Under the pieces are notes generated by a model. The model made no database searches and was not told the origin of the DNA. It saw only the letters and a program-made list of their open reading frames with translations. The translations under genes and the position numbers were made by a program. Below are positions 5,986 to 27,569 of a DNA stretch of 64,000 bases, one piece after another. The DNA is taken from assembly GCA_025558095.1 (NCBI GenBank), contig JAIVFI010000042.1, positions 248,001 through 312,000 of the forward strand. The letters run 5' to 3'. The DNA comes from Hyaloraphidium curvatum (Eukaryota; Monoblepharomycota; Hyaloraphidiomycetes; Hyaloraphidiales; Hyaloraphidiaceae). Numbering within the stretch: position 1 is the first letter of the stretch; every line of letters starts with the position of its first letter.

Positions 5986-7798
5986 TCAACGCCCGCTGAG
6001 GTCCAGCAAAGACCCTGTACATGACACCTCACTGATCCCACTGACGGCGACGCCGGTTGATGCGGTGCCCCAATAAAAGTAGATCCATCCCGACTCGGCG
6101 CCGTTGCTGCAGACCAGCCTGAGGCGCAGCGGCATGCCCGTGAGCAAGTCCGTAAAGGCCCGCGAGTCCTGCTCGCAGTTGCGTCGCTGGATGTTGAATC
6201 CAGTCGCGTAGCTGCGGGGCCGCGGTCAGCATGCCGATGCGATCATGCCGGGAGAGTGGGACTTACAACTCCATCTGCTCCATGGGGTGCGTCTGCCATT
6301 CGCTCCTGTGTGCGTTGTACACCTCGAACTTGCCGACCGAATTGCACGCCTGGAAGGGCCTGGCGCGCCGTGCGAGCGAGTAGATCTGCGCGCCGCCCGA
6401 GTTGAGTGGCGCATCGCACGCGCTCGAGTTCCAAACGGGGATGCCGATCTGCAGGTCCGGGCGGCGTGACACGGCGCCGATGTAGAATGCGGGACATTCC
6501 ACGCGAATGGGACGGAGGAGGTTCCGCGAGACGTAGGTGCCGATGGCGCGGCCCATGGCGAGGCCCTTGACGTTGTCGCTCGAGACGTGGATGCCGCCGT
6601 AGATGCGCGACATCCCCGCCTCGTCGGCAGCTGAGGAAAGGCTGGCGAAGGAGCGGGGAGCGATGCCGGGGAAGTCGGTGGGTGCCGTGAAGGGCACATT
6701 GTCGGTGCCGAAAAAGCCGCGGATGGCGTTGGATGCGGCGCCCGAGAAGGTCGAGTGGCCGGAGGTGTAGGCCGGAAACGGAGGTGTGACCAGGAGCGGG
6801 GTCCACGAGGGATCTGCCGGAGGCAGCGCCGGGTTGATCGCGGGATCCGACGTGCGCGCGGCGGTCACGGGTCTGATCGAGTTGAATCGGTACTTTGTCG
6901 TCCAGCACGAGATCCCTGCATCTGCAGTGGCGATGTTTATCAGGGCAAAGAGCCTGGCTTCTTCGAGCTCCGGCAGCGGATTTCCGGCCTGGGAGCGCTG
7001 CTGGACAATGCCAGCCGCAATCGTGTTCCACATTCCCGGGGGCGTCGAGGTCCCGCCTCCCTGGGCCCAGTAGCGCGCAATGTTGGTCTGCTCCGGCGTG
7101 CGCACAGCGGAATTGGCAGCACCGATGCCCATGACCTCGATGAGCTCTTCCGCGTACTGGGGGCTGCTGATGGCAGGCGGCGCCTCGGGCACGGCGAACG
7201 AAGACTCGGGATTCTCGTCGTCAATCTCGGCAGGGACACCGAATGGCGTGACCCGGGGCCACTGTGGCAGCAAAGGAGTCGTGACAAAGGTCGGAGGGGT
7301 GGGCTTCCAGTGCTCGGGACCCGGGACGAGATCGTAGGCGACAACTGCGTCGGAGCCATCGTTCGCACGGAGGGCAACAATCGCAGCCGCAACGGCATCG
7401 CCCCAGCGGATCCCGGCCGAGACGGCGGCGGCGGGCTCGCCATTTGCGCTGATGGCCTGCGCGAAGGTGGCGTTGGTCGTGGAGGCGCTTGCGGGGAAGA
7501 GGGTGTTGAGAACGCCCCGGGCCGCGGCTGCGGCCGCCGCGCCGGGTGCCGCCCCCGCGGCGAGCGACGAGCGGGCAACCGCATAGCTGGAATATCCGGG
7601 AGAAATGCCGTTGACGGCGTCGAACATCGCGACGTGCAGCATCGCCAGTGCGCGCGCGGCGCGGGGCGGGGCGAGCGAGGTGTCGCGGATGCGCTGCAGC
7701 AGCACGGCATTCCAATCCGACGCGGCGCCGGCGTCGGCGGTAGCAAAAAGGGCGCAGAGTGCGGTCGCGAGGGCCGCTAACGCCGCGGCCCGCATCAT
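5986..7798 (-). CDS. Secreted vanadium-dependent haloperoxidase-like / PAP2-superfamily enzyme
   Basis: Two exons (7798-6267, 6211-5986; 55-nt intron with donor GTAAGT) give 585 residues. The start at 7798 puts a signal peptide (residues about 1-24, ending near DAGA) at the N-terminus; the frame is open from 7909 but that extension has no signal. The full vanadate-binding signature is present: K302 in KYRFNSIRP, RP at 309-310, SGH at 346-348, and SRxxxGxHxxxD with H404 and D408. In this superfamily these residues bind vanadate (haloperoxidases) or act on phosphate (PAP2 acid phosphatases). The family is far more common in bacteria, so lateral origin is possible. The second exon adds a Cys-containing tail of 75 residues. 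Halogenating versus phosphatase activity cannot be told from sequence. Confidence 0.88.
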
Positions 7799-8000
7799 GG
7801 GGCGCAACCGGGGCAACGGCTTTGTCCCTGGGGACACGGGAGAAGGTCCCTTCGGGCTGTGCCATAGTTCCCGATCCGTCGCCAAACTGTCCCCCGTCCA
7901 ATCGGGCACTTCCGTGCATCAGTTCATTCTGGTATTGCTGTACATCGTTCTGGGTGTGCTCGCCGCAAGCCCGGGTGCTCGAGTATCGTGATCAGCAAGT

Positions 8001-22417: not shown

Positions 22418-24307
22418 TCAATCCGCGATCGAGCCCACCTCATTCTCCGTCTCCTCGACGTAAGGATACCGCAGTTCCCGCAGGAAGGCCTCGAACTCCT
22501 CCCTGTCCGCGTCCGTCTGCCCGACCTGCATGCCGACGAGCACCTTGCCGACGTCGGCCCCGTAGTTGCGGTAGTGGAAGAGGCTGACGTTCCACGTCGG
22601 CTTCATGACCGCAAGGAACCGCTGCAGCGCGCCCGGCCGGTCCGGGAACGAGAACCGGAACAGACGCTCATCGGGCAGTTTGGCGCGGCCGCCCATGAGG
22701 TACCGCACGTGCGCCTTGGCGGTTTCATTGTCCGAAATGTCGGTCCCGTGCATGTCCTTCTTGGCGAGCTCGGCGAATATGGCCCCGAGCTCGGTCTCCC
22801 GGTCGCGGGTTTGGAGGGAGAAGGACATGAAGATGTTTGCCTTCTCGGAATCCGAGAAACGGTAGGCAAACTCCGTCACGTTGCGGGGCGCGATGGCCTT
22901 GTAAAGGGTCATGAAGCTGCGGAGGGGCAAGGGATGAGGACAATCCCCGCAGCAGCGTTCCCGCCAGGTTCCACCTTCCGGGCTTCTCAGGAATCACGAC
23001 GCTGACCAGGGCCTCCCTCTTCTCACCGAGCTCCGCGCGCTCGCTCACGAAACGGAGCCGGTCGAAGTTGATGTTGGCACCGCTTGCAATGGCCACGTAT
23101 GTGCCGCCCGTCAGACCCTTGATCTGGACGTACTTCTTGAAGCCAGCGACAGAAAGGGCGCCGGCCGGCTCAACGATGGACCTCGTGTCCTCGAAAATGT
23201 CCTTGATGGCCGCGCACACCTCGTCCGTGGAAACGAGGACCATGGCATCGACGAGCTCCTGGGCGATCCTGAATGTTTCCTCGCCGACGAGGCGGACCGC
23301 GGCACCGTCCGCGAACAGTCCCACTTCCGGGAGCTCCACCCGCTTCCCGGCCTGCAGGCTCCGCGTCATAGCGTCCGCGTCGTAAGTCTCCACACCGATG
23401 ACCTTGACGTGCGGCGCCACGCGCTTGATGTAGGAAGCGATGCCGGTGAGGAGGCCACCGCCTCCGACACAGGCAAAGACGGCGTCCAGGGAGGCCAGGG
23501 TGGCGTAGGCTGGCAGCTGGCGGACGATCTCCATTGCGATCGTCCCCTGGCCGGCGATGACGAAAGGATCGTCGTACGGGTGGACATCGACGAGCCCTTG
23601 CTCCTGTTGTCGCGTACGGTCAGGATCATTCGAGCGCGGGGAGGGTTCCGACCCACGTCAATCAGCTGCTGCCGCCGTTTCTTCGCCTCGTCAAAGTCCA
23701 TGCCGTACAAAACCGCTTTGCCTCCCAATCGCTCGACGTTCTTGACCTTTATGGGAGGGGTCGCGAGCGGCATGACGATGGTCGCCTCGATGCCCATCTT
23801 CTTCGCGGCGAGCGCGACTCCCTGGGCGTGGTTGCCCGCCGAGGCGCACACGACGCCGCGCTTCCGCTCTTCGGGCGTGAGCTGGGACATCCGGTTGTAC
23901 GCGCCGCGCAGCTTGAACGAAAAGACGGGCTGGAGGTCCTCGCGCTTCAGGTACAGGTTGTTCCCGAACCGCGTCGACAGGTTGACCGCGTGGGTCAGGG
24001 GGCTCTCCATCGCCACGTCGTAGACCGGTGCGGTTAGGATCATCTGGAGGTAGTCCGGGTGTCCCGCGCCGGGGGTGTCCGGCTCGGCGTGCCCGTTCGC
24101 CAGGCCGTTGGCGGCGCGCGGGTTCTCCCAGATGGGCTCCCCTGTGAACAAGGTGCCGTCGACGCCGAAAAAGTGCCAGCCTTCGCCGTCGAGCGAGATG
24201 GCGGCCTCGAGTTTCGGGGACGCTGGAGCGTCGGGCGTAGACACGCGCGCCACCACCGCCGGCGCCAGCGCAGGGGGCGGGGTCGAAGGCGACGGTGCCG
24301 GCGGCAT
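22418..24307 (-). CDS. ILV1: Threonine dehydratase (deaminase), isoleucine biosynthesis
   Basis: Three exons (24307-23657, 23603-22975, 22916-22418) join in phase to 592 residues. The enzyme converts threonine to 2-oxobutyrate, the first step to isoleucine, in mitochondria. The PLP lysine lies in [12 protein letters not shown], the phosphate loop is GGGGLLTG, and [10 protein letters not shown] is conserved. Splicing restores [17 protein letters not shown] and [22 protein letters not shown]. The C-terminal ACT-like regulatory region (two copies around [13 protein letters not shown]) should mediate isoleucine feedback. From the 24307 start there is no clear presequence. The frame is open to an ATG at 24550, and that extension is rich in Arg with almost no acidic residues, so it may be the true mitochondrial N-terminus. 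Confidence 0.95.
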
Positions 24308-24769
24308 CGCGACGTTGAAGTCCAACAACACACGGCTCGCGATTCGCCTCTGGTGGAGATGCCGGCGGCGCGGTTTGTTTTGACGTTGGTGATGACGCGT
24401 CTTCACTCGATTCTGCCAAGCTGGAGCAATGTTGGGCAGCGATCTCGTAGCTAGAAGGAGTGGACTATTCCAGCAAACAGAAGAGCTAGTTTTGGGAGCT
24501 TTATGCCCGCTGACCGATGTTGTAGCGGACCCTGCCTCGGGCTTCCCCATCCATCATTTCGACAGGCAGCCCGGATCACCGGCTGTGTCGCCAAGCGGAT
24601 CGCATATCGGATCTTTATCCGCTGAACGAGACGACGATGCGACGATCTTTCCAGGGTTGGGTGTGGTGGCAACGACGGGGCTCCCGCTTCATTTGCCATT
24701 TGGGGACGTCGGGCACACCCTTCGATTCTGCCGACACGGCCTCTATTCGCATCGCGCTTCCAGCGAGCG
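24308..24769. other. Divergent 5' region, ILV1 / SGNH hydrolase
   Basis: This 462-bp gap separates two divergent starts. The part next to ILV1 may encode an N-terminal extension of that protein (see ILV1). No TGACTC Gcn4-type site was found by eye, and no other feature was recognised. Confidence 0.5.
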
Positions 24770-25810
24770 ATGGACGGAAAGGACACGCATTACGATAAGG
24801 AGGGGAAGGATGCCGACTCGATCCCGGCGTCGGAGGTCGCCCTGTCGCACGGTGCTTCTTCGCCGAAGCGCGGCGCCTTCTATGTCGCGCTCGCGGCCAC
24901 CGCGCTCGTGGCGGCGGGCATCGCGGCCTTGGCAACGTACTTGAGCATCAAAGCGCTCGCCGCACCGTGCCCTACTGTGCCGGAGGCCACCAAGACCGTG
25001 ACGACCACACAGACGGTCTTCGCGACGGTGACAGCTCTCGCGGCTGTGGAACACACGCTCCCCGTGGACCCTGTTCGGATCATCGCACTCGGAGATAGCA
25101 TCACGCAGGGATACCTGTACGGAGGGCACTACCGATCCTTCATGTCATACCCTCGGAGGCTGCAGGAGCGGCTGAACCTCAACGAGTTCGGCTGGGGAAG
25201 GGGATTCGAGGTCAAAGTCGAGGCGAAAGGTGGAGACCGGGTTCTCGACGAGTTCGCGCAGCGATATCGGTATCAGCTCGAGGCCAGAGCGAAGGGCGGG
25301 GAGCTCTACGAGTGGAGTATTATCCTTGGTGGATTTAATGACTTAACGTATGGCTCCAAAGCCTCCGACGTCCTGGCGGGTCTCCAGCGTCTGTGGGACA
25401 TTGGACGGGGCAGCAACCCTTACATGAGGATCCTGCAAGCGACCGTGATGGAGTTCGGTCGCAACATCGTGAGTGCCCGCATGACCTCGCAACCTACGAT
25501 GTGATTCCAAGCGCAATCGCCGCAGACCAACTTCGCTGCAGTCGAGCAGCAGCGGATTGAGCTGAACCAGGGAATCTTCAGGGCCGCGAACGCTACGCGC
25601 AACGTGTTCGTCCTGGACACGGCCCAATATTTCCAGTTCCGGAACATTTCGGACGACGAGCGGAGAGCCAGATGGGACGACGATGTGCATCCGACGTCCT
25701 ACGGATACCAGCTCCTCGGCGACGTGTTCTATGAAGGGTGGGTAGCCTTGACCGTCGGATTCCTTTGTTTTGACGTCGGTCCTTGCAGCATTCGAGGACT
25801 CCTGCACTGA
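24770..25810 (+). CDS. Membrane-anchored SGNH/GDSL hydrolase
   Basis: Exons 24770-25468, 25526-25737 and 25789-25810 give 310 residues; the second intron (25738-25788, donor GTGGGT) is a multiple of three, so reading through it also ends at the same stop. A single hydrophobic segment at residues about 37-62 after a charged N-terminus suggests a type II membrane protein with the catalytic domain outside the cytosol. The SGNH blocks are ALGDSITQG (nucleophile Ser), LGGFNDL (Asn) and DDDVHPTSYG (Asp and His of the triad). A Thr-rich stem links the anchor to the domain. Such enzymes remove acyl groups from lipids or polysaccharides; the substrate is not evident. Its stop codon is one base from that of the ZMYND10-like gene. 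Confidence 0.88.
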
Positions 25811-25811
25811 T

Positions 25812-27569
25812 TCAAGTACAAGCAAATGAAAGTCTCTCGTCTAGAACAGCAGATGCTTCTTTGTCTTCTCCTGTCTGCTGATGTAGTTGGAACGCTAATC
25901 TAATGCCCTCTGTGCCTCAATATGCCTCTGCGACTCGTGCAACGTAACTTTGGCCCATCAATGTTTGCAGATCGAGAGCTGAACAGGACTTACCGCTCGA
26001 GGTACTCCTGGAATGCTGCATCCCGGGTCTGGAACCATATTCCGTGGACGTCCGCTTGTTCCGCCTTGAGAGACTCTTCGAGAGAACGGTCCACCGAAGT
26101 GATCTAATCGTGCATCGTGTCGGATCGCAAACGCCATCATCCATCTGAGCCCTTACCTCTTGGATTAGTCCTTTGGAGCGAGCGCCTTTCATCTCCGCTG
26201 GCTCCAGGAGGGAGACTTCTTCTACGACAGCTTGTAGGGGACGGAGGTGCGGAAGGTGCTTCAGAACAGCCCCGTTTAGAATATCACGCAGCTAGGGAAT
26301 CGTGGTTAGAGCTAGTGAGGTGCCTTGTCTTTGCCTGCAAGTGTTCGCAATACGAACCTGCATGATCCAGCCGCGCCTCTGTGCGTCGATCTCGTACTTT
26401 CGGCGTACATCGGGCTCAAGGAGGAGGTTGTACAAAGCCATCCACGTCTTGAGAGGATCGTTAGACGTTGAGACCACAAAAATATCTGCGCCCCCATACC
26501 TGAGCTTCGTACTTGGTCAGCTTGGTGCTTGCCTCCACCATGTTGCTGGCAAACTCCTCATCGAGGAGCTTTTCAAGTCTCAGCCAGGGTGCGGACTCCA
26601 GAAGCTGGATCAGCAAGACTACAATATCTGATTTGTTTGTCAAGCTAAAGGAAGTGCGGGCCCTTAGTGACTCAACTCACCAAAGTCGGCCTGCAACATC
26701 AGATTTGTGGCTTCCAAAGGCAATGATGAAGCAAAGTCGGTGATGCACTGGACAATAGCGAGCGCCGACAGACTAATCCGGTGCCTGTGCCGGTGGTGTG
26801 CCGCTGCCAGATCCTGTTGGTGGATTAGCCTCGTGCGAAGGCAACCCTCGTCTGTGGTACCTTGTCGACCTTCTCCATTCTTCTTTCCAGAGCTGAAGGT
26901 GATGTTCCCTCCCCCTCTTCGTTGCTTTGTCCGGCCATATCAGCGATTGACGTGGTTGCCTAGCTACGGCCACATACCCCAGCGCAAGAAGGTTCACCAT
27001 TTTCCGACGGCACCACCGGAGTAGATCCGTCGCGTGCGAGCCCAGCGACGAGCACGCAAAGCTATGGTAGAGTATCAGAGACAGAAAATCAGCCAAAGTG
27101 GCTTCAAACTGAATCTGATGGCTCCGTTGATCAATCGAAGAGCGGGGCGGCCACTTGCATTGCTCACCACGAAGCGGAGCTTCAACGCTGCTTCTTCATT
27201 ACCGTCCAGGTTCAGCACCAAATTTGGCACGATTTGAGATTTCCAACGCTCGAGCACCAGCAGCTCGTAGACCAGAACTTGGGTCTGCCGAGCATGAGCG
27301 AACAATTGCCGTATCACCAGGGGCTCCGCACCTTCTCTGTATCTGCTATCACATCCGACACACGATCTTCATCGCGCTCTGTGGCTGCTCTGTGTGCCTC
27401 AGCATGGAGGAGCTCGATTGCTTCCTGTTGATTGAACCATCTTGCAACCGCTGAGCCAGGGTTCGCCGTGCCGCAGACTGTCTCACCTCCTGCTGCCAAT
27501 GTCGGCCATTGCCAAAGGCGTTATTGATTCGGCTAGCTCCGAAATAGGCACGGAAGGTCCCGTAGCCAT
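25812..27569 (-). CDS. ZMYND10: ZMYND10-like axonemal dynein assembly factor lacking the MYND finger
   Basis: Ten exons (27569-27487, 27440-27332, 27284-27168, 27114-26978, 26892-26681, 26627-26500, 26447-26358, 26291-26157, 26103-25994, 25899-25812) join in phase to 402 residues. Recognisable ZMYND10 blocks in order are GSRRWFNQQEAIELL, TQVLVYELLVLERWKSQIVP, FEATLADFLSLILYHSF, ALAIVQCITDFASSLPL, LLIQLLESAPW, YEAQTWMALYNLLLEP and LRDILNGAVLKHLPHL. In animals the protein is a cytosolic chaperone factor for preassembly of inner and outer dynein arms of motile cilia. The human protein ends with a MYND zinc finger. Here the last exon ends RLAFQLHQQTGEDKEA...FACT with no Cys/His cluster and abuts the neighbouring gene, so the finger seems absent. 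The first nine exons are well supported; the last splice is less certain. Confidence 0.85.

Follow-up and report, generated by a model that had tools for sequence, protein, structure and literature searches.

The minus strand of the window, by which we mean the whole analyzed stretch of 64,000 nucleotides, carries a ZMYND10/DNAAF7 ortholog that starts at the ATG at 27569 and extends down to about 25917, or to 25812 at most (Table 1). It comprises nine well-fixed GT-AG exons, separated by GT-AG introns of 46–66 nt, and a short last exon. A previous reading of the letters alone (the sequence-only reading) had proposed ten small in-phase exons; nine of these stand, whereas the position of the tenth is uncertain. 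An independent spliced protein-to-DNA alignment against human ZMYND10 recovered exons 1–8 with GT-AG boundaries and without stop or frameshift. The identity proposed for the gene is real and far above chance. The spliced match scored 340, whereas 60 shuffled proteins averaged 83.9 (sd 9.1) and did not exceed 105; the match lies 28 sd over the shuffles. In addition, blastp aligned the assembled model with human ZMYND10 over about 320 residues (E=1e-35, 28% identity). The helical region is co-linear over about 370 residues with that of the animal proteins (human, mouse, medaka and Drosophila), and the fungal and animal sequences have the key blocks W-NQQ, ELLVLERWKSQIVP, WMALYNLLLEPD and LPHLRPLQ in common. 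No Pfam model covers this helical part, and human ZMYND10 itself is matched by MYND models only, so that a profile check was feasible for the MYND finger alone. The genome holds one copy of the gene.

Table 1. Exons of the ZMYND10 ortholog and its convergent neighbour (positions in the window)
Feature	Position	Strand	Basis
ZMYND10 exon 1 (ATG at 27569)	27487..27569	-	Spliced alignment; donor GTGAGA
ZMYND10 exon 2	27332..27440	-	Spliced alignment
ZMYND10 exon 3	27168..27284	-	Spliced alignment; less sure at the 5' boundary (47-nt intron with donor GTGCGG)
ZMYND10 exon 4	26978..27114	-	Spliced alignment; also unspliced tblastn match in the window
ZMYND10 exon 5	26681..26916	-	Spliced alignment; start uncertain, low-complexity linker
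ZMYND10 exon 6	26500..26627	-	Spliced alignment
ZMYND10 exon 7 (TWMALYNLLLEPDVRRKYEID)	26358..26447	-	Spliced alignment
ZMYND10 exon 8	26157..26291	-	Start: spliced alignment; end: reading frame and GTAAGG donor
ZMYND10 exon 9	25994..26103	-	By eye and reading frame; donor GTAAGT
Preferred last exon (RYVARVAEAY*)	25917..25947	-	46-nt intron and likeness to human QARRWAETY; inferred
Alternative last exon, 88 nt (RLAFQLHQQTGEDKEASAVLDERLSFACT*)	25812..25899	-	Requires a 94-nt intron
Convergent neighbour, GDSL lipase/esterase	24626..25811	+	Pfam PF13472, E=5e-14 in main exon; stop near 25811 read from sequence

For the last exon, we prefer the ending at 25917, because its 46-nt intron fits the normal intron size of this gene and because the predicted peptide resembles the human segment ahead of the MYND finger. 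The 88-nt exon of the sequence-only reading is possible, but its intron would exceed the size range of the other introns. A gene for an F-box-like protein (PF12937; 27674–29701, plus strand) is arranged divergently to ZMYND10, the two starts being about 100 bp apart. Further away in the window, at 6266–7918 on the minus strand, lies a gene for a PAP2/vanadium chloroperoxidase-like protein (PF01569, E=2e-8; VCPO_N and VCPO_2nd just under their cut-offs).

A ZMYND10 without its MYND finger

As far as can be judged from the sequence, the MYND finger is absent from the ZMYND10 locus, as had been proposed; the exact end of the gene is less sure. No acceptor up to 200 nt away from the exon-9 donor leads to a peptide that has a MYND cysteine pattern. 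The zf-MYND profile search suggested by the sequence-only reading was run and gave no match in the fungal model, with human ZMYND10 as a matching control (E=9e-9). The antisense strand of the GDSL neighbour, scanned over the next 1.6 kb to position 24300, encodes no finger either. In the human protein the profile match places the start of the finger at residue 394. The AEAY* end of the preferred model resembles human WAETY, about 15 residues ahead of the finger, where the linker to MYND starts. The gene is a MYND-less ZMYND10 ortholog rather than a canonical member of the family. It is very improbable that the transcript obtains a finger from a distant, unusual exon or that a second gene provides one. 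The genome does contain at least 150 MYND-domain matches over the Pfam cut-off, many of them in open frames of 300–500 codons, but against a distant exon stand the acceptor and antisense scans and the end of the convergent neighbour, only 1 to about 105 bp away, and against a second gene stands the single copy of ZMYND10. The same genome whose ZMYND10 is without MYND thus shows a large expansion of the MYND family. Other MYND proteins may supply the function of the finger in trans.

That the helical part alone suffices for dynein assembly is plausible, and Mali et al. 2018 offer some precedent: the FKBP8 interface reaches past the MYND domain, which agrees with functional rescue by medaka deletion mutants (PMC6044906). 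FKBP8 binding in human cells requires W423, a residue of the MYND finger, and T379 close to it (PMC6044906). Unlike the animal proteins, the fungal one in its preferred form ends near the region of human T379, and an equivalent of W423 is not encoded, so the fungus probably lacks, or has replaced, a coupling to HSP90 of the FKBP8 type. The CS domain of LRRC6 has been reported to bind a C-terminal fragment of ZMYND10 (PMC6940843). The LRRC6 of this fungus retains its CS domain, so the contact between the two proteins may be made through the helical part.

An outer-arm dynein gene set

Two independent domain models, applied to the whole genome (31.9 Mb), detected exactly three dynein heavy-chain genes. 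The C4 heavy chain is the cytoplasmic DYNC1H1, its best PDB match (523 bits). The C16 heavy chain is of the outer-arm DNAH5/8 type, with DNAH5 as best PDB match (308 bits) and, in second place, a 4730-residue chain that we take to be DNAH8, though its record bears another name. The C38 heavy chain is of the outer-arm DNAH9/17 type, with PDB matches to DNAH17 and DNAH9 at 313 and 291 bits and the next at 239. Walker A motifs are intact in both outer-arm chains, including those of AAA1-3 in C38 and AAA1 in C16, and C38 has 3025 codons in open frame without a stop.

Accompanying these chains are the intermediate chains DNAI1 (41% identity) and DNAI2, the arm sensor calaxin, and LRRC6, whose LRR and CS parts are both present (the latter read by eye). 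LC1 is assigned on the basis of an LC1-like C-terminal LEDVTLVGNPLEE (NPLEE) motif, the LRR part alone ranking PPP1R7 first, and an ODAD4-like TPR gene is a probable, less certain, ODAD4. PACRG (39% identity), EFHC1 (41%) and CFAP20 were also found; DNAI1, calaxin, PACRG and EFHC1 were each confirmed by their best PDB match. As in animals, the single-copy ZMYND10 thus occurs alongside outer-arm dynein and LRRC6, and its proposed link to axonemal dynein is supported. There is a single PIH1-domain gene, PIH1D1-like by eye (C24:430779-431159). At C31:177712-178092 lies an LRR gene that shares 46% identity with a portion of DNAAF1/LRRC50; it could be DNAAF1 or encode an Sds22-like protein. An N-terminal match to SAS-6 is located at C14:400979-401401; SAS-6 is kept although the CPAP G-box and delta and epsilon tubulin were not found in the genome. 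The tubulins detected are alpha, gamma and two beta-tubulins (C33:122687-123403 and C9:248043-248750) with different tails. The EGEF tail motif marks an axonemal role in beta-tubulin, and neither of the two tails has it. Three chitin synthases are 49–64% identical to a yeast division-I query. Calaxin is reported as opisthokont-specific (PMC4415241), and because of these division-I chitin synthases together with calaxin we consider the organism a fungus. A diatom, which would have a comparable genome size and dynein set, was weighed as the source and rejected on the same two grounds.

Axonemal and ciliary genes not found

The search for axonemal heavy chains and DNAAFs that had been suggested thus yielded two outer-arm chains and LRRC6; inner-arm chains, DNAAF3 and KTU were not found. 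The same two domain models detected neither inner-arm heavy chains nor the IFT dynein DYNC2H1 in the whole genome. Genome searches gave no match for IFT52, IFT81, IFT172, IFT20, IFT122, IFT70 or IFT57; an IFT88 query returned a weak, generic TPR match only (29%), and a SPAG6 query armadillo matches of about 30% only. Likewise, p28, RSPH9, GAS8, ENKUR, CFAP298, SPEF1, CCDC103 and a DNAAF2-like gene were not seen in the genome. COX1 was not found in the assembly. These absences refer to a single assembly, which was searched at the level of individual exons and for the most part with human queries; it may have gaps or lack stretches, and such searches would miss certain short or coiled-coil proteins. 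The sensitivity was fair, if incomplete, as proteins of about 40% identity were recovered. A search covering NME7, CFAP52, DYX1C1 and others was flooded by WD40 matches (16 of 152 candidates scored); its reading as absence was discarded, and it was repeated in part.

What kind of flagellum

The sequence-only reading suggested that the fungus forms a motile flagellum or did so until recently. This holds to a limited extent: the outer-arm module is present and looks intact, whereas inner arms, IFT, radial spokes, central pair and delta and epsilon tubulin were not found. Judged by this gene content, the fungus is unlikely to have the flagellum that is standard in chytrids. The data rather suggest a reduced, outer-arm-only system in which the loss of MYND is one part of the change, and not an ordinary flagellated fungus.

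On balance, we lean towards a MYND-less ZMYND10 that serves two outer-arm chains, in an outer-arm-only axoneme made independently of IFT during a stage that is rare or has gone unrecorded. ZMYND10 ends after its helical solenoid and would most likely be a client-specific chaperone of both outer-arm heavy chains, folding them as it does in animals. The coherent outer-arm kit retained by the fungus comprises the two heavy and two intermediate chains, LC1, calaxin, a probable ODAD4, LRRC6 and ZMYND10, along with the doublet and basal-body proteins CFAP20, PACRG, EFHC1 and SAS-6. Apparently lost are inner arms, IFT and its dynein, radial spokes, N-DRC, central pair, and delta and epsilon tubulin. 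The reduced axoneme, bearing outer arms alone, would probably be assembled in the cytoplasm. From this gene set we infer that the fungus builds an axoneme, that IFT is not required for it, and what ZMYND10 does at the molecular level. Plasmodium microgametes form IFT-independent axonemes in the cytoplasm. Counting against our reading are the beta-tubulin tails and the presence of SAS-6 with no CPAP G-box found. The more specific proposal, that a fungus recorded as flagellum-less builds an IFT-free outer-arm axoneme in a hidden stage, with ZMYND10 folding its motors without MYND, is put forward tentatively, as possible rather than probable.

The many flagellar genes not found, together with the loss of the ZMYND10 finger, could also mean that the flagellum was lost recently and that the outer-arm module and ZMYND10 are decaying, the missing finger being the first sign. 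This is unlikely: no decay is seen in the C38 frame, the Walker motifs or the nine ZMYND10 exons, and the remaining genes form one coherent module. Retained and lost genes divide by module, which argues against random decay; such loss would hardly spare a single complex together with the chaperones specific to it. Quite unlikely, too, is a recruitment of outer-arm dynein to a non-ciliary microtubule task (e.g. nuclear movement or the spindle), with ZMYND10 and LRRC6 kept as its folding factors. Such a role would suit a genome in which the standard ciliary assembly machinery was not found, but DYNC1H1 is already available for cytoplasmic work, and PACRG, EFHC1, CFAP20, calaxin and probable ODAD4, which make sense on doublets, are retained as well. 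We give little credence to an ordinary chytrid with a normal flagellum whose missing genes were overlooked by the search or the assembly. PACRG, DNAI1 and EFHC1, similarly divergent, were recovered, whereas eight IFT proteins, further heavy chains (with two models) and delta and epsilon tubulin were not, even if the mostly human queries set limits to the search.

Comparison with known systems

The diatom Thalassiosira pseudonana has DYNC1H1 and outer-arm chains only, and forms an axoneme only in its gametes (Wickstead and Gull 2007, PMC2239267). Like this diatom, the organism studied here has DYNC1H1 and outer-arm heavy chains and neither inner-arm chains nor DYNC2. In contrast to it, it is a fungus, has two outer-arm chains of animal types and calaxin, and yielded no convincing IFT protein. 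The best reading is that the outer-arm-only sets of the two are convergent. T. pseudonana is said to retain some IFT, whereas none was found in the fungus, which counts against the axoneme proposed above. Flagellated fungi normally retain both arms, radial spokes and IFT, and the minimal fungal flagellum amounts to 184 orthogroups, including inner arms, radial spokes, N-DRC, IFT-A/B and IFT motors (PMC13358043). Our gene set has the outer-arm dynein parts in common with this minimum; in contrast, the tested markers of inner arms, radial spokes, N-DRC and IFT were not found.

We know of no flagellated stage of this fungus. Hyaloraphidium curvatum is reported to lack ZED tubulins and to have lost cilia (PMC12659703), and a 2023 table lists it without flagellum (PMC10459994); Galindo et al. 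2021 asked for further analysis to confirm that flagellar components have been lost (PMC8371127). The gene set agrees with these records, in that there is no delta or epsilon tubulin and no standard flagellum is expected. In the passages of PMC12659703, PMC8371127 and PMC10459994 that were consulted, a retention of outer-arm dynein and ZMYND10 is not reported for H. curvatum.

Dynein-arm preassembly has been studied mainly in organisms that have both arm types and IFT. An outer-arm-only genome would reveal which assembly factors the outer-arm branch requires. Those remaining here are ZMYND10 (without MYND), LRRC6 and the PIH1D1-like protein, with DNAAF2, DNAAF3 and CFAP298 among those not found. 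On this gene set, flagellar loss in Hyaloraphidium would be incomplete, which bears on the question raised by Galindo et al. 2021 (PMC8371127).
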